From Lenzites betulinus (lineage: Eukaryota; Basidiomycota; Agaricomycetes; Polyporales; Polyporaceae), in NCBI GenBank assembly GCA_022264855.1, contig JABYQU010000001.1, positions 1,612,001-1,676,000 of the forward strand: a stretch of 64,000 nt of DNA, given 5' to 3'. Within the stretch, counting starts at the first letter, position 1; each line of letters starts with the position of its first letter. Below are positions 29,485-57,361 of this stretch, piece after piece. A model generated the notes under the pieces. It was not told the origin of the DNA, made no database searches, and saw only the letters and a list, made by a program, of their open reading frames with translations. The translations under genes were made by a program, and so were the position numbers.

Positions 29485-29684
29485 ATGTGTCGAGGCCTGG
29501 GGTCCTTGCAGACGTGTGGTCAAGTATGTAGTCAAACTGAAACAAGTGTATCTTATTGCATAAATCTCGCTTCTTGCTCTCGTCCAGCAGCCCCACAGCG
29601 GGGATGTTATTTTTCAGCTCGCAGTGTCATACAACTCCCATGCCGGTTGCATGGCCGGATTTTAGCGTATCCATCGGACTCGTT

Positions 29685-29703
29685 CCGATTCTTCAAGAAT
29701 CGG
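29685..29703. repeat. Outer terminal hairpin, left copy
   Basis: CCGATTCTTCAAGAATCGG: 9-bp perfect stem around a single central C. It contains the 5' 11-bp terminal repeat. It lies within 2 bp of the end of arm homology. Confidence 0.85.
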
Positions 29704-29954
29704 TTATCATAGGCTCCAAATCCCAACTCAGGGGCTTTAGTTCTGTACCGTTTCCCACGCTATTCCGGTCCGCTTACCCGTTTGTCCGGGCGGTCCGCCT
29801 TGCCCTGTGAGTGAAAAAAACTTCGTCGACGATTCCCTAGATCTCCTTCCTTACTCCTTCCCTTACTCCTCGACCGCGTCCCTACTCATACTATCCTCGT
29901 TGCGAAAGCACGCCCACGCCCATTAATACAATACACCTCTTACGGTGTTGCGAA

Positions 29955-32900
29955 ATGCGCTCGAAACGTTGTGAGTTTCATTTCCCTCTTATCTCGTTGT
30001 TTTACTCACATTTTTCCAGCGCATACGTTGTTTCCTATCAATGATTTAATGGGACGCCCACTTTTGTGCGGTGCGTCGCCGTCCCTCACGCCCTCGGCTT
30101 CTTACGAAGTTTCTTGCTCCACTGCGGAAGCTCACGCTCTGTGCGTGAGCAGCTCCATGTTGTATGCCGTGCACGTACCGACTTCTGTCCTCATATGTCG
30201 TCTCAATGCAACGGAACTTTTCCAGTTGGCCACTTGTCATGGGCTTCGCGGAGGTCGTTCAACGCGCACTGCAAAGTTCATGCGCGGTGCTCTTGAGGTT
30301 CATCAATGTATGTGCGCTCCCATATGGTCGGTATTTCGTATTCCGCAGATCCCCACTTATTTTGGTGGTGCGATCGATAACCCGGAGCCACTTCTTCCAC
30401 CGAGCTTTCCGCCAGCTCCTCGTACTCTGTTACAGCAAGCTGTTTTTTTACAGCGTTGGTCTGATGAATTCAGACCATCCTCCGTGTATGAGCGCCCTTG
30501 TGCTGTATGCGCTTGCCTTATTTATGAGAACGTTCTCATATCAAAGCCCTTATCCGAAGTGGATCTGTCCCCTCTAGTTCGTGATGGGCATGGAGTGACG
30601 CGGGTTGAACGGTGCCACGTCGGTGACCCTGTATGTGATCTTAAGGGACCGATTTGCTACGAGACCAGCATCGTTGACGTTGACGGCGTACAGCATATAC
30701 TTCTATGCGCCAAGTGTGACGCATCTTTGAAACGCGGCGAGCTGCCACTACTTGCGCTAGCAAACGGCCGGTGGCTTGGCGAGATCCCCGACCAGCTTAA
30801 GAACTTGAGCTATGCCGAAGAACTTTTGATTTCGCGCTTCCGCCGCAACTACTGCGTCGCTCACGTCAATGGAGACGGGCAAGGGTTTATGCGTGCTAAT
30901 GCAATTCTTTTCGAGCAGCCAGTTTTGCAGGTGTATGATGTACTGCCGCCTCCACAGCTTGACGTTAGCGAAACATTTGCAATCATTTTCACCGGGAGCA
31001 GCAAACCTACACCAGAAGAGTACATACGGACCCCTTTCATTGTGCGCCACCGTGTTGTTCTCGCTGCGTTACGGTGGCTTAAGTTGAACCACGTTCAGTA
31101 TCAGAATGTCTTGATATCTACCACCAATATGATGCAGTATGAAGACGATTCTCCCCCGGTTTACATTATACACCGCTACGTTCCTGATCACGAACAGGTC
31201 GAGAACAATGTCGCCGTATACAAAACTAGCGACGCTAAGTGTACAGTAGCAGGGGATGAACAGTGCCCCTTCTCGGTCCATGCCCTCAGTGCCTCAGAAT
31301 TAGGAGAGATGTCTTACAAACAGCGTATCGCTTACGCTATTCGATACTTTGATCAAGGAGGGTCGGCTTTGGGCGTTGGGCATGCCGATAGTCCTCAGTC
31401 TATTTATTCAAATGAACAACTGTACCCTGGTATGTATCCTTGGTTGTATCCTTACGGGCTCGGCGGTTTCGAAAATGACAATCGAGTACGCCGCCTTGAT
31501 CGAGTGCCTCATTTGCGCGCAAATCTAATGTATGGGGATCGCCGGTTTCAGACAGACCGTTCTTATTCTTATGTCGCCTATAGTCATTCGCAGGTTCGCG
31601 CGAGTACCACAGGGGGGTATCTGTTGACAAAAAAGTCTAACTTCGTCAACGTGGCTGACAAGCTTTTGAGTATTGATCGTGAGGCGTTAGACAATCTTAT
31701 TAAGCGTGCGGATGGCGGTTCGTTTGTCGCGCCTGAGACCGAGGCAGAGAAAAAATGTTTTGAACTGATGAACTTGATAGACCATGCATCCGGTCAGGTC
31801 GGTGGCTCGGCGGCTAGAAAGAAGCATCAGCGTAACGAAATCAAGTCTTTGATATTTTTGAAAGGCGTACCTTCTTTCTTTTTTACGTTTGCGCCAGCGG
31901 ATACCAAAAATCCGATATGTCTGTCGTACTGTGGCGAGAACATTGATTTATCTCAACCGTCTCCTCGGCTTCGTACGGACAGCGAACGATTGAGAGCTGT
32001 GGCTGGAAACCCGGTTGGCGCCGCGCGTTTTTTCGACCGTACCGTCAACGCTCTGCTGCGAGTCATGCTAGGTCTTGGATATAATCGCAATGGGCTATTT
32101 GGTAAAACGGCGGCGTACTATGGTACGGTTGAAGAGCAAGGCCGGAAGACACTACATCTTCACTTGCTCATCTGGATTGAAGGCAGCTTGTCGCCTCAGG
32201 AAATGCGTGATCGTGTTCTTAGTGACGACAACTTTCAGAAAGCACTCATAGAGTGGCTTGAATTTTGTCATACCGGAGACTACTTCACGTCCACTGAAGA
32301 CCTCCTTCAGGAATCCTGGGAGAAGGCAGGCGACGAATATATAAGCAACGGCCGTATTCAACGAACTAAGCCGACATTACTTATCCCTGATGTTGCAATG
32401 ACATTGCCTGTTCGTCCCCCTGACGGAATGTCACCTTCGCAGTTACAAGAATGGTACAAAGTGTTCCGCGCGGATGTGGACCGTGTAGTGTTCTGTTCTA
32501 ATCGCCACGACCCTGATCACAAACGTGGTTGCATGCGTGGCCAAAGTCCTAATAAATATTGTCGCGCTCGCTTCCCTCGTGAAACGTTCGATGACACCAT
32601 GGTTGATTCGACTACAGGCGCGATCAGGTTCCAGAAAAAGGCGAAAATGATTAATAGTTACAATCCGTTAATATCTGGAGCTCTCCGTTGCAACACCGAC
32701 TTCACCTCACTCATGTCCGGTACTTCAATACGCGCAATCATTGCATATGTTACTGACTATATCACTAAGAACGGATTGACAACACATACATTTTTTCAAA
32801 CTATACGGACTGTCCTTCAGAAGAACACACCCTTACTCGAAGGCTCCTTTCATGAGCGAGAAGTTAACGCGCGCAAATTGATAACGAAATTTATCAATGC

Positions 32901-35900
32901 TCTCTCTGCCGCATCTGAAACCGGAGGCCCTGCGGCCAGTGCAAATCTGCTTGGCCAACCAGACCACTACACTGACCATGAGTTTAAAACGTTTTTTTGG
33001 TATGGTTACGTTCGGCGTGTGTTGGAATCTGCCCCGCATGAGCTGTTAGTGGATGCAGATCTATCACATACTGTGGATACATCTACAGTTATGTTGGCGT
33101 CCTCTGGCGATCGAGTTGTTTCTCTGTCCAAAGTTGACGACTATGTTTGGAGGCCAGCTGCGCTATCTTCTATGTCGCTCTATCAGTTTTTGCGTAGTAC
33201 TGATATTAAACTATTGCCCAAGAAGCAGAATCATACGACTGAAGATGACTCCTCTCTAAATGCCGTTTCCGCATGTGATGAGAGCAGTGGTGACACGCAG
33301 AACGCCAGACACCGCAAGCGAACCACGCGTGTCCTGCATTTTCAACACGAACACCCTCGGTATGCTACCCATGGCGTATCGCGCCGTTGTAAATCAGACC
33401 TGTGGACACTCACCTTTTCCGGTGGCGTACTTCCTAGACCGGATCGTGGTGATCGGGAAGAGTATTGTCGTACTATGCTCACTTTATTTGCGCCTGGTGG
33501 TTGGCGTTCGGCTCCGGATCTATTACTATGTGCTGATTCGTGGTCTACTGCATTTGATAATTGTGAGTTTGATCGTGAAGCTCTACTTGTCATGTCTAAT
33601 ATGAATGTCCTATACGAGTGTCAGGATGCGCGTGATGACTTCTCCGCTGCCCGTCGGCAACCATCAATGGCTGAAGCTAGTTCGCATGCTGATTTCTGTG
33701 ACATTGAACCCACTTTTGAGCATGCATATATGACAGATACGTTAACTGATTTCCTTGATGAGCCTGGTAGAGAGATTGGTCAAATTTCTGCAAAACATGA
33801 GGCGGATGTCAGAAAAATGAGAACGTATCTTCGGGCTTTTGAAAAAGCTCACCTCACCGCGAGCAACTTTAAATCCGACGCCTTGACCTCATACTCTTCT
33901 GGAGGGCATCAGTCCCAGAGTCCTGCACAATGGAAAGCGATGGTTCAATCTGCTAAAGAGGAGGTGGTGGATCAACGTAAGAAAAAGACACTACGGGCGG
34001 AGGCGTTCGCTGCCGGTGTACACGGTCCGCAGCAACCTTCCCGTCCGCGGCTAGCACTAATAGAAATTCTAAATAAGGCAGACTTGGATCGTTTGTATTC
34101 GAACGGTATTTCTATTGATGCCGGATTGCAGGATTCGCATCTGCGCATGCTACATAGCACAATTGAATTCTACACCTTGAATTCTGAACAGATTCGAGTA
34201 TTTGCCATTGCGGCTCGTCATCTGCACCATCATGATAAAGAACCCCTGCGCGTGTATATGGGCGGTATGGGTGGCACTGGCAAGAGTCGTGTGCTCCTTG
34301 CCCTTGTTGGGTTTTTGACTGCGCGTGATGAGTCTCACCGGTTTCTTGTATTGGGGCCTACTGGGAGTTCCGCTGCTAATATAGGAGGATCTACTTATCA
34401 CTCTGTCCTTGGGCTCGGATTCGACAAGGATGGCAAACTTTCACGCCGCGCCCTAGAAAATATACGAGAGCGTTTCTCTGATGTTGATCTCATTTTTATA
34501 GACGAGGTTTCCATGATTTCATGTGGAGACTTGGAACGTATTTGCGGTGCGCTAACTCAAGCTTTCAGTAATATATCTGTGTCTTTTGGCGGTAAGAGTA
34601 TTATTTTAGCGGGGGATTTTGCCCAATTACCTCCACCCGGACGGGGCAGCTCACTGTACAGCCCTAATGTTGGCACCATATCAACCTCTGCATCTCGCAC
34701 AGGTCAGCAAGCGGCGATCGGGAAGTCTTTGTGGCATACCTTTACAACCGTTGTCTTATTGCGGCAGAACATGAGACAGACCGGTGCTAGTGCTGAGGAC
34801 ATTGCATTTCGTATTGCATTGTCTAATATGCGCTATGCGCAGTGTACCGCGGCTGACATTAATTTGCTTCAAAGCCGCGTTTACTCACCCTTTGTGGCTA
34901 CATCTATCGCAAATTTAGACCGCTTTGACTTTGTATCTGTGATTACCGCCCGTAACGCTCATCGGGATGCGTTTAATGAGTCTAGAAATGTTATGTTCGC
35001 TGCACAGAGAGGATCTGTATTACACCATTTTCATTCCGTAGACGGGTGGGGAAAATTGAAGGAGTCTGCATCTATTCGCCAAGCTCAACGGGATTACGCT
35101 GATACTTCGGATCCTGTACGAACCTCTGACAGACTTGGTCCACGCCTACAGTCGGCATTGTGGGCGTTGCGGCCCTCTATGACTGATCATCATGCAGGTG
35201 TGCTGTCCCTATGCGAGGGAATGCCTGTACTACTTAAGTCAAACGAAGCAACAGAGCTTTGCGCCACGAATGGCGCACCCGGGTTTGTACATGGCTGGGA
35301 CTCACATACTGATTCGAAAGGGAGGGAATACCTCGATGTACTATTTGTGCGTCTTAATAATCCACCTCGCAACGTGCAGATCGCAGATTTACCTCTCAAT
35401 GTGATACCTATTACACGTTCTACACGCACTGTGAAATGCACGCTACCTTTTGGAGACACTATCGTGTCAATTCAGCGATCTCAGGTAGCATGCCTTCCTA
35501 ATTTTGCACTCACCGATTTCGCGTGTCAAGGTCTGACCAGAACGGCAAATGTTATTCATCCAATTTGCTGTCGTAATCATCAATCACTCTACACTGTTTT
35601 CTCTCGGAGTAGTTCTTTCCGGGACACTGTTATTTTAGAGGGATTTGCAGTCGCTAAATTGCAAGGGGGGACGTCCCCCGCTCTTATGCAAGAATTCTGC
35701 GAGTTAGAAATATTGAATGATATAACATACAAGAGGGAGACAGGGACATTATCGTCATCAGTGCAGGGAGTCAGTCGAACAGATCTGATTTCGTCCTTCT
35801 TACGTGTTCAGAGGTGCGGCTACATCCCTCCGCATGCAGACGCTGGCCTGCAATGGGACGGATTTGTTCGACCGCATGCAGGGGTCCCTGTTGCTGAAAC

Positions 35901-36873
35901 AGGTTCAGACAATGCAAGAAAAATTAATCCCGTTGTTTCCCATTCGCGTGTTCCTTCTGAAAAGCGTGCACGGCCTGCTGCGTCATGGACAGTTGCTAAG
36001 AAGACGAAGGCGGCATCGCTTGATGGGTCTGATGAGCTCAGGTTGGGACTCCGATGGGACTCCGCTAACTGGAGTTGTGCATACGATAGCTTGTTGACCG
36101 TTCTCTGGAATATACGTGTAGAGTTAGGGCCCTTGTGGCTGCAGCATCTACCTCAAGAAAACATTCTCACTCGTCAGCTAGCTTCTCGCTTTCATGACCT
36201 GCCTATCATCAATTCTTCTTTGGACCATGTACGTGACAGCCTACGGGACTCTCTAGCGATGCACGACGCCTCAATGTTTCCCCGAAAGGGACCTGCCATG
36301 GCGTCTGTCACCGATCTAGCCTCTGCGTTGTTCGAATGCCCCATACCATTTGGTACGAGCTGCATCACCTGCCAGAGATGTCAGTATATCACCGTCCGTT
36401 CTGCCGCATTGTGCTCGAATCTGCTATGGTATGTCCTGCCCGATCACTTAGCGCCACCGTCCATTGATGACGCCCCTCCAAGTATTCAGGCTATAACAAA
36501 CCGTTTACTGACTACTGCTTACAGCTCACGTTGCTCTGCGTGCCGTTCAAACGGGAATATTGTCACAAATTTCACGCGCGCCCCAGGATTACTAATTTTT
36601 GATGTATCCAGTGCAGGTAATGTTCGCCCTGATTTGCTGTTAAAGCTGAACGTCGACGGTTCTTTGCAGAACCTCTCGCTATCCGGAAGCATTTATCATG
36701 GTGGCGGCCATTTCACCTCCCGCTACGTCAATCGATCGGGAGAAGTCTGGTATCATGACGGTGTTTCGTCTGGACAGCATTGTGTGCGTGAGGCTGCTCA
36801 CGTCAACCTCATTGACATTCGGTCTGCTCTCGGGCGACGGGTGACCCATTATATATATGCCCTCAAGCTTTAA
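29955..36873 (+). CDS. Helitron replicase: Rep + Pif1 helicase + USP-like peptidase (left copy)
   Basis: Rolling-circle replicase. I start it at ATG 29955 because a GTGAGT...TTTTCCAG intron (29971-30019) joins MRSKR to SHTLFPINDL in frame, giving 2,289 aa. An uninterrupted frame from a GTG at 29971 has no ATG. In order: a Cys-containing N-terminal region (RPCAVCACLIYE near 30.5 kb); a Helitron-like N segment (SNEQLYPGMYPWLYPYGLGG, 31.4 kb); and a Rep nuclease with HLHLLIW (about 32.16 kb) and the two-tyrosine motif YVTDYITK (32746-32769). A Pif1 helicase follows, with GGMGGTGKSR (34.26 kb), LIFIDEVSMIS (34.50 kb), GDFAQLPPPGRG, LLRQNMRQ and FSRSSSFRDTVIL. The C-terminal domain resembles a ubiquitin-specific peptidase: SANWSCAYDSLL with the putative Cys (36.07 kb), Cys pairs CITCQRC and CSACRS, and a His box HGGGHFTSRY (36.7 kb). 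The likely role is to nick, unwind and transfer the element. All key residues are present. Confidence 0.9.
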
Positions 36874-37236
36874 CTGGTAAGAGACATTCCAAATGTACCA
36901 CTGCCCGCAACCAACCTCTCTGTACAGTGCGTTTGGATGCCCGATTCTGCTCATCCTAACCCCAACCGTACGTGTTTCTGATTTATACAAACACCTTCTG
37001 ACTTGACTTTTGCATAGTATCAATGGTGGATGATCCTCGAATATATAGGACGGGGCCCGCCTCACATCCACCTGCTCCGCATTCCAGTGCCGACGAGAGA
37101 GATCAGATAGAAGGTGGCTAGGTCGTCCCAGATTTCGATTGAGTTCTGTGACTTGTGAATTTGTAGTGTGGCTCGCGCATGAGGTTAAAATGGGCAGGCA
37201 TGTATCAGTGTTACGCTCCTTCCCCCCAGTCCCTTT
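36874..37236. other. Gap between replicase and F-box-like gene (left copy)
   Basis: 363 bp. TATATA at 37043-37048 could be the promoter of the downstream gene. An antisense open frame overlapping the replicase end is treated as a shadow. The same content is mirrored at 49809-50170. Confidence 0.5.
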
Positions 37237-38178
37237 ATGGCTCCGATCTCAACCCACCCCTTTGAGCTCCCGGACGATGTGGTTCAGCACCTGCTTCGGA
37301 ACTGCTCTGTTGTCTCCCTCGTCCAGCTGCGTTATCTTGACCGTTTGGCCGACAACTATGTCTCAGATGAGCTACAAGGACGCTACCGCAACCTCCTTCG
37401 GCCATTCGTTTCAGATCACGAGCGCTTTCGAGTCATGCTCAACACGTATGGCGCCGTCATCTCTGGATCGGGCGCTTTGGCGGTCTGCCTACACGGCTCC
37501 ATCGTTCCTCATGACCTCGACGTTTATTTGCCAAAATGTGCTATGGCTGCTGTGCTTGCCTACCTGATCAACGTCGAATCCTACTCCATTGGAACTTTCC
37601 TCGATGTGTCAATGTCTGAGGCCACCTACCAGGGAGGGATCGATCGGGTGATTTGCCTCCGTCGGGGACTCAGCACCATCGACGTCGTCATCAGTCACAC
37701 GGACTGTGCGACTTTACCCTTGCCGCACTTCTGGAGTACAGCATCTATGGTCTACCTGACAGGCGACTCGATCTGCGTGCCATATCCTTCACTTCTAGAG
37801 GACCGAACATCGCTCCTGAATCCTGCACGCATTGCTATTCCCGGTGCCGTTGCCAATCTCACTCCACTCATCCAGAAATACCGACAATTTGGCTTCGATT
37901 TCTACCTGAACGAAGCGGATTGGAGGCGTACGGTATGGTCGCAATGGGAGTGCCCTCGATCGAAGTCACCGACGTGCCCGATCACCGTACGCTGGTTTGG
38001 CGACAACTTCTGCTTACTCACGAACTTCGCGACACGAGCAATCCAACCCAAGATAGCCGTTTCGAATCTGACAACGGTTTGGTGGAGAGGGGGTGTTCCG
38101 TGTGGGCACCGGTGCAATACAGGAGAGCGTGGATTGGTCTCAGGAGTGTGGACACAGCTAAACGGGCATCTGGGTTGA
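37237..38178 (+). CDS. F-box-like protein with nucleotidyltransferase-like motif (left copy, gene B)
   Basis: Single-exon protein of 313 aa. The N-terminus FELPDDVVQHLLRNCSVVSL reads as an F-box, which in general docks Skp1 of SCF ubiquitin ligases. Then SGSGALAVCLHGSIVPHDLDVYLP has the G-S-G/A...D-x-D pattern seen in nucleotidyltransferase-like folds of many basidiomycete F-box-type proteins. The C-terminus ECPRSK..., WWRGGVPCGHRCN aligns loosely with gene E of the same element, which supports this frame over an alternative one at 37.9-38.2 kb. Enzymatic activity is not established. The role in the element is unknown; cargo from the host or an anti-host factor are both possible. Confidence 0.65.
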   Translation: MAPISTHPFELPDDVVQHLLRNCSVVSLVQLRYLDRLADNYVSDELQGRYRNLLRPFVSDHERFRVMLNTYGAVISGSGALAVCLHGSIVPHDLDVYLPKCAMAAVLAYLINVESYSIGTFLDVSMSEATYQGGIDRVICLRRGLSTIDVVISHTDCATLPLPHFWSTASMVYLTGDSICVPYPSLLEDRTSLLNPARIAIPGAVANLTPLIQKYRQFGFDFYLNEADWRRTVWSQWECPRSKSPTCPITVRWFGDNFCLLTNFATRAIQPKIAVSNLTTVWWRGGVPCGHRCNTGERGLVSGVWTQLNGHLG

Positions 38179-38368
38179 TAATATCTGGAATCTCTCTACG
38201 TTGCGTCACATTCCATAAGCTCTGTTAATGTTTCTCCTGCCTCAATCACGAACCCTATCTCCATTGTCTTCCTGTCCTCTTTTGCACCCGCCGCCACCAC
38301 TTCAGGTACGTCTTGCTTCTTATGTTGAAGTAATTTCTGATCGTCGGAAGTATGAGCTCATCTTCCGT

Positions 38369-39521
38369 TCACATATGCACCTGACTCACCCGAGTTGCAA
38401 TGGCGTGCGCCAGACGAACGACTGTAGTTGGCTCAAAAGCCACCTCATAGTACCGTCCGTTGGAATTGCGCATGATGGTGACTGTAACACGGGCGGATAC
38501 ATCGACCAAGTCACCCCTTCTCAGTGCCAGAGGAGGGATGGCGTGGATTGCGCCTGTTTCTAGCTGCGTAGCTGCCACAATCCGTTCTGTCACACGCCAG
38601 TGCGATTTTATATCGGCAAACTTCGATCGAGGGTCCTCCGCAGCCTTTAACACCGACGGAAGATGGTCATTGGTGCCGACCCGGATCTGAATAGCACGCA
38701 AATCCTCTGTCAGTGGCGATCAACTTGGAGATCAGGGTGGCGTACCTTTGTGAAAACACGGCGCCGCAAGACCAATGTTCCGGGACGGTTTGGACGGGTG
38801 TCTGCACTGACACCCAGCTGCAGCAATATCACCTCTCTCATCGCCGCAACTGCGCGAAGCTGTGGTTCAAAGGCATCATCCCGTCCACCACTAATAAGTG
38901 TGATGTGCTGGGTGGCCTTTTTCGCATTCATGCCCGTGCTGAATCCGGTGAGTGTTTGGTCTTAACACTATAGTGATTTATAGCAGCTCACCCGTCCCAA
39001 TTGCCTCCGATGTTCATATTTAGATCGGCAATTACACCTTGTAATCGAACGATTACCTCGAGGTTTGTGTCCCCCGCACCTTCGACGTCCTGGCGGACAT
39101 AGACAAGAGCCCTGGACATCTCCGGCTGATGATCAACCCAAAGCCACTCGCTGAGGTCTTCGACACTGATTGGAACCATTCTAGCGTCGACAAGTGTAGA
39201 CGCAGATATGGTGTTCTCTTGTATGAGATGTGCCGCCTTGTCCGGCCACATATCGCGTGCTAAAGTAGTTGCATTTGCTGCGCTATTGTGAGTAATTGCT
39301 GCCGCCCTATTAAGCACCGACTGACCCATTATGAATGCCATGTTGTAGCGTGTAGATGTCTGTGAAGGAGAAGGAGATTTTGGCCACCCTTCCGTACTTC
39401 TCGTTGCCTTTATGCCAAAGTACGCCGCAAAGGTTCGGTCAGCCGATCGACTGTCAGCCCCACTCCGGGTCCAATCGAGGATCGAAATTCCAACATGGAT
39501 TACATGTGCAGCGCCATCCAC
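38369..39521 (-). CDS. Unknown element protein C (left copy)
   Basis: Three-exon gene antisense to its neighbours. Exon 1 (MDGAAHVIHVGISILDWTRS ... IGGNWD-G) splices at GTGAGC...TTCAG into GTGMNAKKATQHITLISGGR. It then splices from RRRVFTK into DLRAIQIRVGTNDHLPSVLK. It ends ...IATRVSQVHM, or possibly splices onward at the GTGAGT there. No family is recognised. The C-terminal part ALRRGDLVDVSARVTVTIMR ... VAFEPTTVVRL is beta-rich and resembles equivalent parts of proteins D and F. The middle has an Ala-rich helical stretch. Start and last exon are provisional. V/I differs between the copies at 38488/48557. Confidence 0.6.
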
Positions 39522-39646
39522 TTTAAACCTAATTGGGCCTATCCGTGATCCGCCTTATAGCTCAAGCGCTCACATCCGACCCGACTCAAAGTGCCGACTC
39601 TATTCTCACACACTATCTATACACTCCACTACCACCACATTCTCTC
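39522..39646. promoter_or_regulatory. Divergent promoter of genes C and D (left copy)
   Basis: Only 125 bp separate the opposed start codons of C and D. CTATAAGG on the minus strand (about 39,553-39,560) is a TATA-like candidate for C, and the D side is pyrimidine/ACCACCA-rich. It is mirrored at 47,399-47,523. Promoter function is inferred from geometry. Confidence 0.4.
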
Positions 39647-41011
39647 ATGTCTACCCCCCGGTCTACACGCGGATCAACGGCTGCATCGGAACGCGAAAAG
39701 AAACGAGCTCGGTACGTGCTATCTACAACTCGGGTCTACTCACACTAACAACTGTAGAACGGATACTGGGGAAGGATCCCCTAAGGCCACCCAGACCGCG
39801 ACTGTTGCTCAAGACGACGCTCTTTCCGCGCTTTCGGCAGCATCGTCTTCCGACGACGATACCTCGCTGATCGCGGACTTATTCAAGAAGAGACCGATCT
39901 CTCCTAGTCCTCCGTCGATCGACATCCCGCCAAGTAGCTCACCCCAAGCACGGTCCGAGACTGCCTCCTCTGACCAAGAGGAGGGCGAGGACATCCTTCC
40001 TCACGATAGAGAGACCCGTGCAGTTGTCCCTCCTCGCGCGAAAGGGAAGACATCTGGAGCTCTTGCCGACTTGGGTATAGCCAACAAACAGGTGCCCGAA
40101 GTGGAGCTGACATCCAGCCCGAACACAGGCAACACCGACCTGCATCCTGTGCCCACTGGGACTTTGAAGGAGCCTCTCTCGTCTGCAGTCGACTTCCCTA
40201 AGTGGGTCATTCCGGCAGTCCAAAAGTGGGTCGATCTTTGGTGGCCGCTCCAATGTTTGCTTACTCCTTCAGACGACTCCGGGATATGATGGATTTTACA
40301 GATGTGTCGACGCGCCGCTTTGCGGTTGCTGAAGTCCCGGAGAGCGCCCGCTGGGGCCGATCAGTGGATGGCGTCGACAACTCTCGCTTCTTCTGTGTGA
40401 GCGATGAACCGCTCACGGTCTGGCTCTGCGGAACCATGACCACTAAGTGGTTTCAGAACCGGTTGGGTCAGTTACAAGATCGTGTCAGCGTAGGGTTAGG
40501 TCTCCTACGTGAACGCGACATCGACGCTGCTGTCAAGCTCCTCGCTCTCTCTGAACCAGTGAAAGGTATGTTACCCACTCTCTCCCCTTGAAGTTACTCA
40601 CCATCTGGAATAGAGCCGAAGCGTGACATCATTTACGCCGGACGCTTCATGACAGAGTGGGTCAAGGGGAAGTCTATGCCAGTCGTGAGTTCAACCTTCT
40701 TGCATGTTCACACTTCTTGCTTACAACGCCGTTAGGTGCAAATGTTCGAGGAGATATACGATGCGTCACGTCCGGGAATGCGGCGCGCAGACCTCCCGCG
40801 GAAGATGCATTACGATCTGGGGCCAGGTGATTTGCTCTTAGTGGAGGCCTTTCTGATCAGGTACAAGACGGGCGACACCAAGAAAGACTGGGAGACGTGG
40901 AACACTTCTTTTGAGCTACGTTCCATATCCCTCATTGCGGAGGTCCCGATTGGTCCCGTTGTATCGTCACAGTCTTCCCAGTCTCTTCATGCAGACGAGC
41001 GCATTTTGTAG
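39647..41011 (+). CDS. Unknown element protein D, putative OB-fold ssDNA-binding protein (left copy)
   Basis: Spliced gene starting MSTPRSTRGSTAASEREKKR. The first intron ends at 39757. The N-terminal half is acidic and low-complexity (SAASSSDDDTSLI, SSDQEEGEDILPHD). A 47-nt intron (GTGGGT...CCTTCAG, about 40.23-40.28 kb) joins WVIPAVQK to RLRDMMDFTDVSTRR and resolves what looks like a frameshift. Two more introns follow (about 40.57-40.61 and 40.69-40.74 kb). The ordered C-terminal half has EPLTVWLCGTMTTKWFQNRL, YAGRFMTEWVKGKSMPVV and LGPGDLLLVEAFLIRY...FELRSISLIAEV. A beta-barrel that binds single-stranded DNA would suit a rolling-circle element, but that is inference from strand pattern only. 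Confidence 0.6.
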
Positions 41012-41133
41012 GACCACATAATTATTGCATTTATATTTCTTGGTCTCGATCGCGAGTCAGCCCTGTCTGCCTCCGGTGTGCCTTCGATATCACGGTTTAC
41101 CTGCTTGTTTATCATCTGCTATCGAATCTCATC

Positions 41134-43587: not shown

Positions 43588-43596
43588 GCTCCGGAA

Positions 43597-45911: not shown

Positions 45912-46033
45912 GATGAGATTCGATAGCAGATGATAAACAAGCAGGTAAACCGTGATATCGAAGGCACACCGGAGGCAGACAGGGCTGACTCGCGATCGAG
46001 ACCAAGAAATATAAATGCAATAATTATGTGGTC

Positions 46034-47398
46034 CTACAAAATGCGCTCGTCTGCATGAAGAGACTGGGAAGACTGTGACGATACAACGGGACCAATCGGG
46101 ACCTCCGCAATGAGGGATATGGAACGTAGCTCAAAAGAAGTGTTCCACGTCTCCCAGTCTTTCTTGGTGTCGCCCGTCTTGTACCTGATCAGAAAGGCCT
46201 CCACTAAGAGCAAATCACCTGGCCCCAGATCGTAATGCATCTTCCGCGGGAGGTCTGCGCGCCGCATTCCCGGACGTGACGCATCGTATATCTCCTCGAA
46301 CATTTGCACCTAACGGCGTTGTAAGCAAGAAGTGTGAACATGCAAGAAGGTTGAACTCACGACTGGCATAGACTTCCCCTTGACCCACTCTGTCATGAAG
46401 CGTCCGGCGTAAATGATGTCACGCTTCGGCTCTATTCCAGATGGTGAGTAACTTCAAGGGGAGAGAGTGGGTAACATACCTTTCACTGGTTCAGAGAGAG
46501 CGAGGAGCTTGACAGCAGCGTCGATGTCGCGTTCACGTAGGAGACCTAACCCTACGCTGACACGATCTTGTAACTGACCCAACCGGTTCTGAAACCACTT
46601 AGTGGTCATGGTTCCGCAGAGCCAGACCGTGAGCGGTTCATCGCTCACACAGAAGAAGCGAGAGTTGTCGACGCCATCCACTGATCGGCCCCAGCGGGCG
46701 CTCTCCGGGACTTCAGCAACCGCAAAGCGGCGCGTCGACACATCTGTAAAATCCATCATATCCCGGAGTCGTCTGAAGGAGTAAGCAAACATTGGAGCGG
46801 CCACCAAAGATCGACCCACTTTTGGACTGCCGGAATGACCCACTTAGGGAAGTCGACTGCAGACGAGAGAGGCTCCTTCAAAGTCCCAGTGGGCACAGGA
46901 TGCAGGTCGGTGTTGCCTGTGTTCGGGCTGGATGTCAGCTCCACTTCGGGCACCTGTTTGTTGGCTATACCCAAGTCGGCAAGAGCTCCAGATGTCTTCC
47001 CTTTCGCGCGAGGAGGGACAACTGCACGGGTCTCTCTATCGTGAGGAAGGATGTCCTCGCCCTCCTCTTGGTCAGAGGAGGCAGTCTCGGACCGTGCTTG
47101 GGGTGAGCTACTTGGCGGGATGTCGATCGACGGAGGACTAGGAGAGATCGGTCTCTTCTTGAATAAGTCCGCGATCAGCGAGGTATCGTCGTCGGAAGAC
47201 GATGCTGCCGAAAGCGCGGAAAGAGCGTCGTCTTGAGCAACAGTCGCGGTCTGGGTGGCCTTAGGGGATCCTTCCCCAGTATCCGTTCTACAGTTGTTAG
47301 TGTGAGTAGACCCGAGTTGTAGATAGCACGTACCGAGCTCGTTTCTTTTCGCGTTCCGATGCAGCCGTTGATCCGCGTGTAGACCGGGGGGTAGACAT
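46034..47398 (-). CDS. Unknown element protein D, putative OB-fold ssDNA-binding protein (right copy)
   Basis: Mirror of 39647-41011, with the same four introns and the same translation in each exon, ending HADERIL. Confidence 0.6.
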
Positions 47399-47523
47399 GA
47401 GAGAATGTGGTGGTAGTGGAGTGTATAGATAGTGTGTGAGAATAGAGTCGGCACTTTGAGTCGGGTCGGATGTGAGCGCTTGAGCTATAAGGCGGATCAC
47501 GGATAGGCCCAATTAGGTTTAAA

Positions 47524-48676
47524 GTGGATGGCGCTGCACATGTAATCCATGTTGGAATTTCGATCCTCGATTGGACCCGGAGTGGGGCTGACAGTCGATC
47601 GGCTGACCGAACCTTTGCGGCGTACTTTGGCATAAAGGCAACGAGAAGTACGGAAGGGTGGCCAAAATCTCCTTCTCCTTCACAGACATCTACACGCTAC
47701 AACATGGCATTCATAATGGGTCAGTCGGTGCTTAATAGGGCGGCAGCAATTACTCACAATAGCGCAGCAAATGCAACTACTTTAGCACGCGATATGTGGC
47801 CGGACAAGGCGGCACATCTCATACAAGAGAACACCATATCTGCGTCTACACTTGTCGACGCTAGAATGGTTCCAATCAGTGTCGAAGACCTCAGCGAGTG
47901 GCTTTGGGTTGATCATCAGCCGGAGATGTCCAGGGCTCTTGTCTATGTCCGCCAGGACGTCGAAGGTGCGGGGGACACAAACCTCGAGGTAATCGTTCGA
48001 TTACAAGGTGTAATTGCCGATCTAAATATGAACATCGGAGGCAATTGGGACGGGTGAGCTGCTATAAATCACTATAGTGTTAAGACCAAACACTCACCGG
48101 ATTCAGCACGGGCATGAATGCGAAAAAGGCCACCCAGCACATCACACTTATTAGTGGTGGACGGGATGATGCCTTTGAACCACAGCTTCGCGCAGTTGCG
48201 GCGATGAGAGAGGTGATATTGCTGCAGCTGGGTGTCAGTGCAGACACCCGTCCAAACCGTCCCGGAACATTGGTCTTGCGGCGCCGTGTTTTCACAAAGG
48301 TACGCCACCCTGATCTCCAAGTTGATCGCCACTGACAGAGGATTTGCGTGCTATTCAGATCCGGGTCGGCACCAATGACCATCTTCCGTCGGTGTTAAAG
48401 GCTGCGGAGGACCCTCGATCGAAGTTTGCCGATATAAAATCGCACTGGCGTGTGACAGAACGGATTGTGGCAGCTACGCAGCTAGAAACAGGCGCAATCC
48501 ACGCCATCCCTCCTCTGGCACTGAGAAGGGGTGACTTGGTCGATGTATCCGCCCGTATTACAGTCACCATCATGCGCAATTCCAACGGACGGTACTATGA
48601 GGTGGCTTTTGAGCCAACTACAGTCGTTCGTCTGGCGCACGCCATTGCAACTCGGGTGAGTCAGGTGCATATGTGA
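47524..48676 (+). CDS. Unknown element protein C (right copy)
   Basis: Mirror of 38369-39521. One residue differs: SARITV here against SARVTV in the left copy, caused by the base change at 48557. The exon structure is the same. Confidence 0.6.
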
Positions 48677-48866
48677 ACGGAAGATGAGCTCATACTTCCG
48701 ACGATCAGAAATTACTTCAACATAAGAAGCAAGACGTACCTGAAGTGGTGGCGGCGGGTGCAAAAGAGGACAGGAAGACAATGGAGATAGGGTTCGTGAT
48801 TGAGGCAGGAGAAACATTAACAGAGCTTATGGAATGTGACGCAACGTAGAGAGATTCCAGATATTA

Positions 48867-49808
48867 TCAACCCAGATGCCCGTTTAGCTGTGTCCACACT
48901 CCTGAGACCAATCCACGCTCTCCTGTATTGCACCGGTGCCCACACGGAACACCCCCTCTCCACCAAACCGTTGTCAGATTCGAAACGGCTATCTTGGGTT
49001 GGATTGCTCGTGTCGCGAAGTTCGTGAGTAAGCAGAAGTTGTCGCCAAACCAGCGTACGGTGATCGGGCACGTCGGTGACTTCGATCGAGGGCACTCCCA
49101 TTGCGACCATACCGTACGCCTCCAATCCGCTTCGTTCAGGTAGAAATCGAAGCCAAATTGTCGGTATTTCTGGATGAGTGGAGTGAGATTGGCAACGGCA
49201 CCGGGAATAGCAATGCGTGCAGGATTCAGGAGCGATGTTCGGTCCTCTAGAAGTGAAGGATATGGCACGCAGATCGAGTCGCCTGTCAGGTAGACCATAG
49301 ATGCTGTACTCCAGAAGTGCGGCAAGGGTAAAGTCGCACAGTCCGTGTGACTGATGACGACGTCGATGGTGCTGAGTCCCCGACGGAGGCAAATCACCCG
49401 ATCGATCCCTCCCTGGTAGGTGGCCTCAGACATTGACACATCGAGGAAAGTTCCAATGGAGTAGGATTCGACGTTGATCAGGTAGGCAAGCACAGCAGCC
49501 ATAGCACATTTTGGCAAATAAACGTCGAGGTCATGAGGAACGATGGAGCCGTGTAGGCAGACCGCCAAAGCGCCCGATCCAGAGATGACGGCGCCATACG
49601 TGTTGAGCATGACTCGAAAGCGCTCGTGATCTGAAACGAATGGCCGAAGGAGGTTGCGGTAGCGTCCTTGTAGCTCATCTGAGACATAGTTGTCGGCCAA
49701 ACGGTCAAGATAACGCAGCTGGACGAGGGAGACAACAGAGCAGTTCCGAAGCAGGTGCTGAACCACATCGTCCGGGAGCTCAAAGGGGTGGGTTGAGATC
49801 GGAGCCAT
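48867..49808 (-). CDS. F-box-like protein with nucleotidyltransferase-like motif, gene B (right copy)
   Basis: Same 313-aa product as the left copy, starting MAPISTHPFELPDD. Here the upstream C-run is one base shorter, so the frame stays open a further 19 codons to an ATG at 49865. In the left copy that extension is out of frame. The ATG shared by both copies (49808) is therefore the safer start. Confidence 0.65.
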   Translation of the reverse strand: MAPISTHPFELPDDVVQHLLRNCSVVSLVQLRYLDRLADNYVSDELQGRYRNLLRPFVSDHERFRVMLNTYGAVISGSGALAVCLHGSIVPHDLDVYLPKCAMAAVLAYLINVESYSIGTFLDVSMSEATYQGGIDRVICLRRGLSTIDVVISHTDCATLPLPHFWSTASMVYLTGDSICVPYPSLLEDRTSLLNPARIAIPGAVANLTPLIQKYRQFGFDFYLNEADWRRTVWSQWECPRSKSPTCPITVRWFGDNFCLLTNFATRAIQPKIAVSNLTTVWWRGGVPCGHRCNTGERGLVSGVWTQLNGHLG

Positions 49809-50170
49809 AAAGGGACTGGGGGAAGGAGCGTAACACTGATACATGCCTGCCCATTTTAACCTCATGCGCGAGCCACACTACAAATTCACAAGTCACAGAA
49901 CTCAATCGAAATCTGGGACGACCTAGCCACCTTCTATCTGATCTCTCTCGTCGGCACTGGAATGCGGAGCAGGTGGATGTGAGGCGGGCCCCGTCCTATA
50001 TATTCGAGGATCATCCACCATTGATACTATGCAAAAGTCAAGTCAGAAGGTGTTTGTATAAATCAGAAACACGTACGGTTGGGGTTAGGATGAGCAGAAT
50101 CGGGCATCCAAACGCACTGTACAGAGAGGTTGGTTGCGGGCAGTGGTACATTTGGAATGTCTCTTACCAG

Positions 50171-53100
50171 TTAAAGCTTGAGGGCATATATATAATGGGT
50201 CACCCGTCGCCCGAGAGCAGACCGAATGTCAATGAGGTTGACGTGAGCAGCCTCACGCACACAATGCTGTCCAGACGAAACACCGTCATGATACCAGACT
50301 TCTCCCGATCGATTGACGTAGCGGGAGGTGAAATGGCCGCCACCATGATAAATGCTTCCGGATAGCGAGAGGTTCTGCAAAGAACCGTCGACGTTCAGCT
50401 TTAACAGCAAATCAGGGCGAACATTACCTGCACTGGATACATCAAAAATTAGTAATCCTGGGGCGCGCGTGAAATTTGTGACAATATTCCCGTTTGAACG
50501 GCACGCAGAGCAACGTGAGCTGTAAGCAGTAGTCAGTAAACGGTTTGTTATAGCCTGAATACTTGGAGGGGCGTCATCAATGGACGGTGGCGCTAAGTGA
50601 TCGGGCAGGACATACCATAGCAGATTCGAGCACAATGCGGCAGAACGGACGGTGATATACTGACATCTCTGGCAGGTGATGCAGCTCGTACCAAATGGTA
50701 TGGGGCATTCGAACAACGCAGAGGCTAGATCGGTGACAGACGCCATGGCAGGTCCCTTTCGGGGAAACATTGAGGCGTCGTGCATCGCTAGAGAGTCCCG
50801 TAGGCTGTCACGTACATGGTCCAAAGAAGAATTGATGATAGGCAGGTCATGAAAGCGAGAAGCTAGCTGACGAGTGAGAATGTTTTCTTGAGGTAGATGC
50901 TGCAGCCACAAGGGCCCTAACTCTACACGTATATTCCAGAGAACGGTCAACAAGCTATCGTATGCACAACTCCAGTTAGCGGAGTCCCATCGGAGTCCCA
51001 ACCTGAGCTCATCAGACCCATCAAGCGATGCCGCCTTCGTCTTCTTAGCAACTGTCCATGACGCAGCAGGCCGTGCACGCTTTTCAGAAGGAACACGCGA
51101 ATGGGAAACAACGGGATTAATTTTTCTTGCATTGTCTGAACCTGTTTCAGCAACAGGGACCCCTGCATGCGGTCGAACAAATCCGTCCCATTGCAGGCCA
51201 GCGTCTGCATGCGGAGGGATGTAGCCGCACCTCTGAACACGTAAGAAGGACGAAATCAGATCTGTTCGACTGACTCCCTGCACTGATGACGATAATGTCC
51301 CTGTCTCCCTCTTGTATGTTATATCATTCAATATTTCTAACTCGCAGAATTCTTGCATAAGAGCGGGGGACGTCCCCCCTTGCAATTTAGCGACTGCAAA
51401 TCCCTCTAAAATAACAGTGTCCCGGAAAGAACTACTCCGAGAGAAAACAGTGTAGAGTGATTGATGATTACGACAGCAAATTGGATGAATAACATTTGCC
51501 GTTCTGGTCAGACCTTGACACGCGAAATCGGTGAGTGCAAAATTAGGAAGGCATGCTACCTGAGATCGCTGAATTGACACGATAGTGTCTCCAAAAGGTA
51601 GCGTGCATTTCACAGTGCGTGTAGAACGTGTAATAGGTATCACATTGAGAGGTAAATCTGCGATCTGCACGTTGCGAGGTGGATTATTAAGACGCACAAA
51701 TAGTACATCGAGGTATTCCCTCCCTTTCGAATCAGTATGTGAGTCCCAGCCATGTACAAACCCGGGTGCGCCATTCGTGGCGCAAAGCTCTGTTGCTTCG
51801 TTTGACTTAAGTAGTACAGGCATTCCCTCGCATAGGGACAGCACACCTGCATGATGATCAGTCATAGAGGGCCGCAACGCCCACAATGCCGACTGTAGGC
51901 GTGGACCAAGTCTGTCAGAGGTTCGTACAGGATCCGAAGTATCAGCGTAATCCCGTTGAGCTTGGCGAATAGATGCAGACTCCTTCAATTTTCCCCACCC
52001 GTCTACGGAATGAAAATGGTGTAATACAGATCCTCTCTGTGCAGCGAACATAACATTTCTAGACTCATTAAACGCATCCCGATGAGCGTTACGGGCGGTA
52101 ATCACAGATACAAAGTCAAAGCGGTCTAAATTTGCGATAGATGTAGCCACAAAGGGTGAGTAAACGCGGCTTTGAAGCAAATTAATGTCAGCCGCGGTAC
52201 ACTGCGCATAGCGCATATTAGACAATGCAATACGAAATGCAATGTCCTCAGCACTAGCACCGGTCTGTCTCATGTTCTGCCGCAATAAGACAACGGTTGT
52301 AAAGGTATGCCACAAAGACTTCCCGATCGCCGCTTGCTGACCTGTGCGAGATGCAGAGGTTGATATGGTGCCAACATTAGGGCTGTACAGTGAGCTGCCC
52401 CGTCCGGGTGGAGGTAATTGGGCAAAATCCCCCGCTAAAATAATACTCTTACCGCCAAAAGACACAGATATATTACTGAAAGCTTGAGTTAGCGCACCGC
52501 AAATACGTTCCAAGTCTCCACATGAAATCATGGAAACCTCGTCTATAAAAATGAGATCAACATCAGAGAAACGCTCTCGTATATTTTCTAGGGCGCGGCG
52601 TGAAAGTTTGCCATCCTTGTCGAATCCGAGCCCAAGGACAGAGTGATAAGTAGATCCTCCTATATTAGCAGCGGAACTCCCAGTAGGCCCCAATACAAGA
52701 AACCGGTGAGACTCATCACGCGCAGTCAAAAACCCAACAAGGGCAAGGAGCACACGACTCTTGCCAGTGCCACCCATACCGCCCATATACACGCGCAGGG
52801 GTTCTTTATCATGATGGTGCAGATGACGAGCCGCAATGGCAAATACTCGAATCTGTTCAGAATTCAAGGTGTAGAATTCAATTGTGCTATGTAGCATGCG
52901 CAGATGCGAATCCTGCAATCCGGCATCAATAGAAATACCGTTCGAATACAAACGATCCAAGTCTGCCTTATTTAGAATTTCTATTAGTGCTAGCCGCGGA
53001 CGGGAAGGTTGCTGCGGACCGTGTACACCGGCAGCGAACGCCTCCGCCCGTAGTGTCTTTTTCTTACGTTGATCCACCACCTCCTCTTTAGCAGATTGAA

Positions 53101-56100
53101 CCATCGCTTTCCATTGTGCAGGACTCTGGGACTGATGCCCTCCAGAAGAGTATGAGGTCAAGGCGTCGGATTTAAAGTTGCTCGCGGTGAGGTGAGCTTT
53201 TTCAAAAGCCCGAAGATACGTTCTCATTTTTCTGACATCCGCCTCATGTTTTGCAGAAATTTGACCAATCTCTCTACCAGGCTCATCAAGGAAATCAGTT
53301 AACGTATCTGTCATATATGCATGCTCAAAAGTGGGTTCAATGTCACAGAAATCAGCATGCGAACTAGCTTCAGCCATTGATGGTTGCCGACGGGCAGCGG
53401 AGAAGTCATCACGCGCATCCTGACACTCGTATAGGACATTCATATTAGACATGACAAGTAGAGCTTCACGATCAAACTCACAATTATCAAATGCAGTAGA
53501 CCACGAATCAGCACATAGTAATAGATCCGGAGCCGAACGCCAACCACCAGGCGCAAATAAAGTGAGCATAGTACGACAATACTCTTCCCGATCACCACGA
53601 TCCGGTCTAGGAAGTACGCCACCGGAAAAGGTGAGTGTCCACAGGTCTGATTTACAACGGCGCGATACGCCATGGGTAGCATACCGAGGGTGTTCGTGTT
53701 GAAAATGCAGGACACGCGTGGTTCGCTTGCGGTGTCTGGCGTTCTGCGTGTCACCACTGCTCTCATCACATGCGGAAACGGCATTTAGAGAGGAGTCATC
53801 TTCAGTCGTATGATTCTGCTTCTTGGGCAATAGTTTAATATCAGTACTACGCAAAAACTGATAGAGCGACATAGAAGATAGCGCAGCTGGCCTCCAAACA
53901 TAGTCGTCAACTTTGGACAGAGAAACAACTCGATCGCCAGAGGACGCCAACATAACTGTAGATGTATCCACAGTATGTGATAGATCTGCATCCACTAACA
54001 GCTCATGCGGGGCAGATTCCAACACACGCCGAACGTAACCATACCAAAAAAACGTTTTAAACTCATGGTCAGTGTAGTGGTCTGGTTGGCCAAGCAGATT
54101 TGCACTGGCCGCAGGGCCTCCGGTTTCAGATGCGGCAGAGAGAGCATTGATAAATTTCGTTATCAATTTGCGCGCGTTAACTTCTCGCTCATGAAAGGAG
54201 CCTTCGAGTAAGGGTGTGTTCTTCTGAAGGACAGTCCGTATAGTTTGAAAAAATGTATGTGTTGTCAATCCGTTCTTAGTGATATAGTCAGTAACATATG
54301 CAATGATTGCGCGTATTGAAGTACCGGACATGAGTGAGGTGAAGTCGGTGTTGCAACGGAGAGCTCCAGATATTAACGGATTGTAACTATTAATCATTTT
54401 CGCCTTTTTCTGGAACCTGATCGCGCCTGTAGTCGAATCAACCATGGTGTCATCGAACGTTTCACGAGGGAAGCGAGCGCGACAATATTTATTAGGACTT
54501 TGGCCACGCATGCAACCACGTTTGTGATCAGGGTCGTGGCGATTAGAACAGAACACTACACGGTCCACATCCGCGCGGAACACTTTGTACCATTCTTGTA
54601 ACTGCGAAGGTGACATTCCGTCAGGGGGACGAACAGGCAATGTCATTGCAACATCAGGGATAAGTAATGTCGGCTTAGTTCGTTGAATACGGCCGTTGCT
54701 TATATATTCGTCGCCTGCCTTCTCCCAGGATTCCTGAAGGAGGTCTTCAGTGGACGTGAAGTAGTCTCCGGTATGACAAAATTCAAGCCACTCTATGAGT
54801 GCTTTCTGAAAGTTGTCGTCACTAAGAACACGATCACGCATTTCCTGAGGCGACAAGCTGCCTTCAATCCAGATGAGCAAGTGAAGATGTAGTGTCTTCC
54901 GGCCTTGCTCTTCAACCGTACCATAGTACGCCGCCGTTTTACCAAATAGCCCATTGCGATTATATCCAAGACCTAGCATGACTCGCAGCAGAGCGTTGAC
55001 GGTACGGTCGAAAAAACGCGCGGCGCCAACCGGGTTTCCAGCCACAGCTCTCAATCGTTCGCTGTCCGTACGAAGCCGAGGAGACGGTTGAGATAAATCA
55101 ATGTTCTCGCCACAGTACGACAGACATATCGGATTTTTGGTATCCGCTGGCGCAAACGTAAAAAAGAAAGAAGGTACGCCTTTCAAAAATATCAAAGACT
55201 TGATTTCGTTACGCTGATGCTTCTTTCTAGCCGCCGAGCCACCGACCTGACCGGATGCATGGTCTATCAAGTTCATCAGTTCAAAACATTTTTTCTCTGC
55301 CTCGGTCTCAGGCGCGACAAACGAACCGCCATCCGCACGCTTAATAAGATTGTCTAACGCCTCACGATCAATACTCAAAAGCTTGTCAGCCACGTTGACG
55401 AAGTTAGACTTTTTTGTCAACAGATACCCCCCTGTGGTACTCGCGCGAACCTGCGAATGACTATAGGCGACATAAGAATAAGAACGGTCTGTCTGAAACC
55501 GGCGATCCCCATACATTAGATTTGCGCGCAAATGAGGCACTCGATCAAGGCGGCGTACTCGATTGTCATTTTCGAAACCGCCGAGCCCGTAAGGATACAA
55601 CCAAGGATACATACCAGGGTACAGTTGTTCATTTGAATAAATAGACTGAGGACTATCGGCATGCCCAACGCCCAAAGCCGACCCTCCTTGATCAAAGTAT
55701 CGAATAGCGTAAGCGATACGCTGTTTGTAAGACATCTCTCCTAATTCTGAGGCACTGAGGGCATGGACCGAGAAGGGGCACTGTTCATCCCCTGCTACTG
55801 TACACTTAGCGTCGCTAGTTTTGTATACGGCGACATTGTTCTCGACCTGTTCGTGATCAGGAACGTAGCGGTGTATAATGTAAACCGGGGGAGAATCGTC
55901 TTCATACTGCATCATATTGGTGGTAGATATCAAGACATTCTGATACTGAACGTGGTTCAACTTAAGCCACCGTAACGCAGCGAGAACAACACGGTGGCGC
56001 ACAATGAAAGGGGTCCGTATGTACTCTTCTGGTGTAGGTTTGCTGCTCCCGGTGAAAATGATTGCAAATGTTTCGCTAACGTCAAGCTGTGGAGGCGGCA

Positions 56101-57089
56101 GTACATCATACACCTGCAAAACTGGCTGCTCGAAAAGAATTGCATTAGCACGCATAAACCCTTGCCCGTCTCCATTGACGTGAGCGACGCAGTAGTTGCG
56201 GCGGAAGCGCGAAATCAAAAGTTCTTCGGCATAGCTCAAGTTCTTAAGCTGGTCGGGGATCTCGCCAAGCCACCGGCCGTTTGCTAGCGCAAGTAGTGGC
56301 AGCTCGCCGCGTTTCAAAGATGCGTCACACTTGGCGCATAGAAGTATATGCTGTACGCCGTCAACGTCAACGATGCTGGTCTCGTAGCAAATCGGTCCCT
56401 TAAGATCACATACAGGGTCACCGACGTGGCACCGTTCAACCCGCGTCACTCCATGCCCATCACGAACTAGAGGGGACAGATCCACTTCGGATAAGGGCTT
56501 TGATATGAGAACGTTCTCATAAATAAGGCAAGCGCATACAGCACAAGGGCGCTCATACACGGAGGATGGTCTGAATTCATCAGACCAACGCTGTAAAAAA
56601 ACAGCTTGCTGTAACAGAGTACGAGGAGCTGGCGGAAAGCTCGGTGGAAGAAGTGGCTCCGGGTTATCGATCGCACCACCAAAATAAGTGGGGATCTGCG
56701 GAATACGAAATACCGACCATATGGGAGCGCACATACATTGATGAACCTCAAGAGCACCGCGCATGAACTTTGCAGTGCGCGTTGAACGACCTCCGCGAAG
56801 CCCATGACAAGTGGCCAACTGGAAAAGTTCCGTTGCATTGAGACGACATATGAGGACAGAAGTCGGTACGTGCACGGCATACAACATGGAGCTGCTCACG
56901 CACAGAGCGTGAGCTTCCGCAGTGGAGCAAGAAACTTCGTAAGAAGCCGAGGGCGTGAGGGACGGCGACGCACCGCACAAAAGTGGGCGTCCCATTAAAT
57001 CATTGATAGGAAACAACGTATGCGCTGGAAAAATGTGAGTAAAACAACGAGATAAGAGGGAAATGAAACTCACAACGTTTCGAGCGCAT
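50171..57089 (-). CDS. Helitron replicase: Rep + Pif1 helicase + USP-like peptidase (right copy)
   Basis: Mirror of the left replicase with the same translation throughout the 2,300-codon open frame. It uses the same short first exon (ATG at 57089) and intron (57025-57073). The Rep two-Tyr motif, Walker A/B and peptidase Cys/His boxes are all intact, so both copies could be functional. Confidence 0.9.
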
Positions 57090-57340
57090 TTCGCAACACC
57101 GTAAGAGGTGTATTGTATTAATGGGCGTGGGCGTGCTTTCGCAACGAGGATAGTATGAGTAGGGACGCGGTCGAGGAGTAAGGGAAGGAGTAAGGAAGGA
57201 GATCTAGGGAATCGTCGACGAAGTTTTTTTCACTCACAGGGCAAGGCGGACCGCCCGGACAAACGGGTAAGCGGACCGGAATAGCGTGGGAAACGGTACA
57301 GAACTAAAGCCCCTGAGTTGGGATTTGGAGCCTATGATAA

Positions 57341-57359
57341 CCGATTCTTGAAGAATCGG
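57341..57359. repeat. Outer terminal hairpin, right copy
   Basis: CCGATTCTTGAAGAATCGG, the mirror of the left hairpin, 2 bp inside the arm boundary at 57361. Confidence 0.85.
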
Positions 57360-57361
57360 AA

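Follow-up and report, generated by a model that had tools for sequence, protein, structure and literature searches.

Palindromic organization of the locus

How two nearly identical copies of one rolling-circle transposon come to lie tail to tail at a single chromosomal site is the question raised by a 64,000-nucleotide stretch of Lenzites betulinus contig C1 (hereafter the window), taken from a genome assembly of 37.4 Mb in 108 contigs. Comparison of the window with itself identified two inverted arms of a Helitron-like element, arm A at 29683–43457 on the plus strand and its match in arm B at 43588–57361 on the minus strand, which correspond over 13,775 bp with 99.985 % identity. A match of this length cannot be chance, and a separate repeat search of the window recovered the same inverted pair as two pieces. 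Inspection of both ends of each arm showed that arm B is a complete element, whilst arm A is a copy whose head is exact but whose tail is broken. Our tentative explanation is that arm A was copied in place from arm B by fold-back priming after read-through of the terminator.

A global alignment that included the flanks revealed exactly two differences within the arms, one indel and one substitution. The first is an additional C at 37222, located in a C run, and the second is a C at 38488 as opposed to a T at 48557 (element sense). Outward of the arms, the flanking sequences diverged from 29682 and 57362 onwards, whilst the non-matching centre between them spanned 130 bp (43458–43587). The original prediction of near-identical inverted arms with two differences, formed by a Helitron-like rolling-circle element arranged tail to tail, was thus borne out by the alignment, the Pfam domains described below and the orientation of the arms.

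The palindrome was confirmed to be real in the assembly. Chimaeric or misjoined reads could in principle turn a single element into a palindrome, and the near-perfect arms, with one of their two differences in a homopolymer, would be in keeping with such an artefact, yet we consider it quite unlikely. The spacer at the centre is not palindromic, unlike the turn of a read composed of template and complement, and there are two different outer flanks, each starting exactly at a head. Furthermore, the 102-bp spacer occurred once in the assembly, and the left and right flanks, searched separately, matched the window only (searches for spacer and flanks skipped very common words).

Identity of the repeated element

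The element is a rolling-circle transposon of the Helitron2 type. Each arm contains an open frame for a Rep-helicase protein, at 29815–36873 on the plus strand in arm A (2,352 codons from stop to stop) and at 50171–57229 on the minus strand in arm B, where an identical protein is encoded in mirror coordinates. Both differences between the arms fall outside this frame, the extra C at 37222 being situated ~15 bp upstream of an ATG of the next frame. Pfam analysis of the 2,352-codon frame identified DUF6570 (5.7e-36), Helitron_like_N (1.2e-26) and PIF1 (2.8e-19). The frame also contains HLHLLIW at 781, YVTDYITK at 978 and GMGGTGKS at 1484, which we take to be the HUH, two-tyrosine and Walker A motifs, respectively. 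A Rep with HUH and two-tyrosine motifs and a PIF1-like helicase are therefore present in a single protein, the combination that defines Helitrons. Amongst the 120 database matches listed for the Rep-helicase, the best displayed 60 % identity, and named relatives from Grifola, Hermanssonia, Antrodiella and Phlebia displayed 38–44 %.

Assignment to Helitron2 was based on the element ends. The head of arm A (29683–29703, plus strand) consists of TTCCGATTCTTCAAGAATCGG, an asymmetric terminal inverted repeat contained in a 5' hairpin, and the head of arm B (57341–57361, minus strand) comprises the same 21 bp. In both arms, as well as in a relative on contig C42, this repeat lies 0–2 bp from the 5' end and folds into the 5' hairpin. 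The head bases CCGATTCTTC recur in inverted form near the tail as GAAGAATCGG. This layout corresponds to that given for Helitron2 in PMC3627910, where a 5' hairpin contains the 5' repeat and, close to the other end, the 3' repeat directly precedes a 3' hairpin. At the 3' end, the succession of repeat, TTCC and hairpin was found in arm B and is incomplete in the truncated arm A. The distance from the 3' repeat to the end of arm B is 37 nt, which exceeds the 20–30 given in PMC3627910 and is within the ~20–40 given for FoHeli of Fusarium oxysporum (PMC5148889).

Three other classifications were considered and ruled out. A canonical Helitron (Helitron1) with a 3' CTRR end is inconsistent with the presence of a 5' hairpin and with 18 aligned tails, including that of arm B, that end in ...AAGT. 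A Helentron was dismissed as none of the seven Pfam families that the 2,352-codon frame matched at E 0.1 is an endonuclease domain. Finally, a tandem Helitron array with head-to-tail junctions does not apply, as the arms are joined tail to tail.

Element borders across the genome

Placement of the borders relied on related elements elsewhere in the assembly. The exact head-hairpin pattern was found in 18 places, compared to none for the reversed pattern; these were the two heads of the dimer and 16 others. A purine preceded TTCCGATTC in 17 of the 18 heads, among them both heads of the dimer. This suggests RT/T as a preferred target, although the search pattern already specified the TT. Beyond this TT, built into the pattern at the 5' end, the 3' flanks varied amongst the aligned tails. 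The outermost T at either end of the element may be host-derived.

A pattern for the 3' end of sister elements, allowing up to three mismatches, was found in 15 places, compared to none when reversed. Thirteen of the 15 were exact, and this identity over 22 bp hints at recent activity of the sister elements. For eleven of them, the contig also bore an upstream head of matching orientation, at a distance of 461 bp to 33.4 kb, whilst the remaining four (C57, C89, C65 and C41) had no head identifiable by the exact head pattern. Short elements on C16, C70 and C42 had a tail of a different type near the head. Two heads had no known tail, namely those on C30 (read to 1.5 kb) and C101 (where the contig ends 2.7 kb past the head). 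Two further pattern searches at up to three mismatches were noisy (12 places vs 3 reversed, and 9 vs 11), and from these the exact and one-mismatch places were used.

Alignment of 18 tails (arm B and 17 others) revealed a shared organization, in which the 3' repeat is succeeded by a G+C-rich stretch and then by ...AAGT, beyond which the flanks are unrelated; the C65 tail was dropped from the alignment as it lacked the upstream repeat. Upon folding, 13 of the 18 tails formed a common hairpin and arm B formed a hairpin of its own, whilst C41, C16, C70 and C42 folded otherwise or weakly. The patterns behind these tails include or require the AAGT end and are biased to intact ends, and the alignment therefore locates the border rather than the frequency of broken ends. 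The 3' terminus of the element is at ...AAGT.

Asymmetry of the two tails

With the terminus placed in this way, arm B is a complete Helitron2 copy of 13,802 bp (43560–57361, minus strand), with its head at 57361 and its 3' terminus ...AAGT at 43560. Its tail (43560–43606, minus strand) reads GAAGAATCGG, TTCC, the hairpin GGAGCGG-TGCTAC-CCGCTCC with a perfect 7-bp stem, and then CTCAAAAAGAAGT. Arm A (29683–43457, plus strand) has an exact 5' end, but it breaks off within the hairpin at the 3' end and thereby lacks 28 bp. What remains of its tail (43439–43457, plus strand) comprises the 3' repeat GAAGAATCGG, TTCC and a hairpin stem reduced to GGAGC; at 43458 the arm turns into unrelated sequence, with half of the hairpin missing. 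The original prediction of two full copies accordingly applies to arm B but not to arm A.

The position of the break was further examined against the nearest relative, on C42, whose tail has the AAGT end and a right stem lacking seven bases, with a best fold of −2.3 kcal/mol. After GGAGC, arm B and C42 agree in eight of the next nine bases and in 11 of the last 14. The break in arm A is located in the left hairpin stem, before a stretch common to arm B and C42. This C42 element (C42:198260–198703) is a short, non-autonomous member of the family of ~0.44 kb, matching in its head and tail, with a middle that has no match.

These borders also redefine the centre of the palindrome. As judged from the other elements in the genome, the tail of arm B extends 28 bp into the 130-bp centre, which rules out that the centre is host DNA in its entirety. 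The 130-bp spacer initially proposed is therefore reduced to a host spacer of at most 102 bp (43458–43559), which is probably host DNA 3' of arm B.

Origin of the second copy

Full copies of the element were counted by means of its 5' 7.2 kb, a 501-bp tail query and the end patterns. Single copies elsewhere in the genome, which the original prediction had proposed to seek, were not recovered: when the 5' 7.2 kb served as query, the two arms were the only full-length matches in the assembly, and the other matches were to 78 bp of the head on C42 and to distant relatives on two further contigs (C56 and C19). The tail query likewise matched the two arms only. No inverted partner on the same contig was found for any of the 16 other heads using the exact head pattern, and amongst the 15 sister tails no contig carried two on opposite strands. 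Recurrence of the dimer in the genome was rejected as far as these exact patterns reach, which would miss mutated partners.

Given one copy, the arithmetic chance that a second, randomly placed copy falls within 102 bp is ~5e-6, and the two copies are therefore very probably linked in origin. A local origin of the second copy is likely, and needs no missing donor, since the search with the 5' 7.2 kb yielded no further full copy and the spacer was found once.

It is very unlikely that the pair stems from two independent insertions at a preferred site, after which arm A would have lost its terminal 28 bp and gene conversion would have made the arms alike. Adjacent Helitrons arising from consecutive insertions have been published (PMC2267711, PMC4067079) and self-insertion has been inferred for FoHeli (PMC5148889), but this route requires three coincidences, and only ~1.6e-5 pairs within 102 bp would be expected amongst the three known family members under random placement. 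Two ordinary insertions are also disfavoured because the tails are asymmetric, and the absence of the last 28 bases from arm A suggests an on-the-spot copying accident rather than two ordinary jumps.

Insertion as a unit of a preformed inverted dimer, originating elsewhere or in another genome and bearing a head at each end, is likewise unlikely, if marginally less so than an artefact of assembly. Such a dimer would account for both outer ends being heads, and the palindromic head has GAAGAATCGG, identical to the 10-bp 3' repeat, on its complementary strand, making it a conceivable terminator. However, no donor was found, as the query with the 5' 7.2 kb gave no additional full copy and the spacer gave no second match, and for a dimer inserted as a unit the arm B head would fit its context in the right flank only by coincidence. 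The empty site would distinguish these routes, as local origin predicts the two flanks with the 102-bp spacer between them, whereas ...ATCGGACTCG joined to TATGACGTGT fits a preformed dimer only.

Three routes had been listed in the original prediction, namely two insertions at one hotspot, replication fold-back and transposition of a preformed inverted dimer. Of these, fold-back is favoured by inference, with the asymmetry of the tails speaking against two ordinary insertions and the lack of a donor against the preformed dimer. Under fold-back copying, arm B would have been first to insert, between two gene ends facing each other. At a later time, the Rep protein of arm B would have cut arm B's own head, and the displaced strand would have been unwound beyond the 3' terminator and across 102 nt of host DNA. 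This read-through strand may then have snapped back at its 3' end, with the terminal hairpin of the tail serving as the site of priming, from where it would have copied the element back toward the head until run-off at the Rep-cut 5' end terminated synthesis. Such run-off would account for the exact head of arm A as well as for its incomplete tail. Joining of the Rep-bound head to the adjacent chromosome would have completed the tail-to-tail dimer, with its non-palindromic centre of 130 nt.

Several points weigh against fold-back copying. The junction between the read-through end and the copy has no contiguous microhomology (ACT vs ACC), no intermediate of fold-back was seen, and the joining of the Rep-bound head to the left flank is assumed. 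The lack of an inverted partner at all 16 other heads means that the event would be rare. In addition, the C42 element has an AAGT end with a reduced hairpin, and an intact hairpin is therefore unnecessary for insertion of a tail. Finally, local insertion of a 3'-truncated copy would produce an identical sequence in the end, and its predicted empty site does not differ either.

Local insertion of this kind is the main rival to fold-back. Here, a copy of arm B, cut early in the 3' hairpin, would have been inserted in inverted orientation 102 bp away by ordinary strand transfer, a course of events that we regard as possible, if on the unlikely side. The heads of both arms are exact and have the same TT context as the other heads, the donor adjoins, and a single faulty 3' cut would suffice. 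Conversely, none of the 17 other aligned tails displayed a cut within the hairpin, though the patterns favour intact ends and the C42 hairpin is reduced. The break in arm A is followed by an A, whereas a TT target would leave a T. Landing within 102 bp would also demand a strong local preference, and none of the 16 other heads has a partner in the opposite orientation on its contig.

A broader proposition, and one that we hold to be rather doubtful, is that Helitrons are capable of a turn-around akin to that of rolling-hairpin replication, in which the displaced strand, once past the 3' terminator, would prime on itself and be copied back as far as the Rep-bound 5' end. The product would be an inverted dimer, double-stranded and covalently closed, that could become fixed in a chromosome. 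Should fold-back copying prove true, it would provide one way for large palindromes to form in genomes. The combination of two exact heads and one broken tail leads to direct, testable predictions, namely an empty site with the 102-bp spacer and further dimers in which the heads are exact and the centres vary.

Other features of the element, its surroundings and its relatives

The palindrome probably sits between two genes with their ends facing each other. To the left, the 3' part of a glutamate-cysteine ligase gene (28226–29484, plus strand) was identified by Pfam GCS in two open frames; its stop, located by eye at 29482–29484, is ~200 bp from arm A. To the right, a putative gene end on the minus strand (57426–57545), assigned by eye, consists of an in-frame stretch of 39 codons with a stop at 57426–57428, ~65 bp from arm B.

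Within the element, two accessory open frames follow the Rep-helicase (37189–38178 and 41138–42082 on the plus strand in arm A, each with a mirror copy in arm B). Neither had a Pfam match at E 0.1, and the second had one relative in the protein database. By eye, the starts of both frames appear F-box-like. The C-terminal end of the Rep-helicase frame (about 36300–36870) includes a candidate cysteine-protease-like stretch, again by eye; Pfam named no cysteine-protease family for this frame at E 0.1, and one database relative of the Rep-helicase (P0111) carried PF15499. Just inside the arm tail, a direct repeat of ~65 bp with 83 % likeness was present at 43056–43118 and 43192–43256, and is mirrored in the other arm. 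No match was obtained from Rfam at gathering scores in 29000–58000.

The genome contains several sister groups of Helitron2 elements, with heads on 16 contigs and sizes from ~0.3 kb to 18 kb, or 33 kb with inserts. The largest is a sister element on C56 (60503–93924) with a head-to-tail distance of 33 kb. The part of it that was read contained a 0.6-kb inverted repeat pair inside the Rep-helicase region and, given this pair and the 33-kb gap, further inserts in the element are likely.

Comparison with known systems

In the literature that we found, multimers of rolling-circle transposons are arranged head to tail, nested or side by side. Tandem arrays and head-to-tail Helitron junctions are described in PMC5876387 and PMC4067079, the latter also covering Helitrons that adjoin other Helitrons in bat and maize. 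The dimer shares its end layout, 5' T and Rep-helicase protein with Helitron2 as described in PMC3627910; the accessible text of that paper deals with one-ended and 5'-truncated copies, in contrast to the tail-to-tail dimer with one tail cut in the hairpin seen here. FoHeli also has Helitron2-type ends in a fungus, and the paper on it discusses oppositely oriented nested insertion as well as short duplications of the 5' end (PMC5148889). Its pairs, as far as presented there, are nested, adjacent or tandem, whereas the L. betulinus locus has two near-full elements tail to tail, 102 bp apart.

Amongst basidiomycete Helitrons, HELPO1 and HELPO2 of Pleurotus (PMC4289320) similarly encode a Rep-helicase, with extra downstream genes in HELPO1, but they possess a subterminal hairpin and a 3' CT[A/T]G in place of the Helitron2-like ends found here. 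Two maize Helitrons lying side by side as a result of consecutive insertions, termed "head-to-head" in the abstract of PMC2267711, are dissimilar to each other, whilst the L. betulinus arms are the same element at 99.985 % identity. Maize Heltir (PMC3422177) is related to Helitrons and has terminal inverted repeats; these resemble 3' ends, whereas our dimer is bounded on both sides by 5' ends and has arms of nearly full length. In PMC12477816, PMC10701932 and PMC9071541, the matching orientation terms are used for other things in the text that was accessible. No description of a tail-to-tail dimer of one Helitron was found in the literature searched, coverage of which was incomplete and weak for subscription papers. 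The arrangement of one element as a tail-to-tail dimer thus appears as a new variant among Helitrons.

The Rep protein of adeno-associated virus (AAV) is of the HUH type. The fold-back proposed for arm A resembles the turn-around step of rolling-hairpin replication by such other Rep proteins. In AAV, replication proceeds from a self-priming hairpin (PMC3154452; PMC5714925), and failure of nicking leads to double-length molecules joined tail to tail or head to head (PMC3154452). Turn-around is part of the regular replication cycle in AAV, whereas for the L. betulinus element the step is inferred from a single chromosomal product. If fold-back copying is correct, Helitron transposition would be connected with rolling-hairpin replication as performed by other Rep systems, and the locus would, to our knowledge, represent the first fossil of such a turn-around step.

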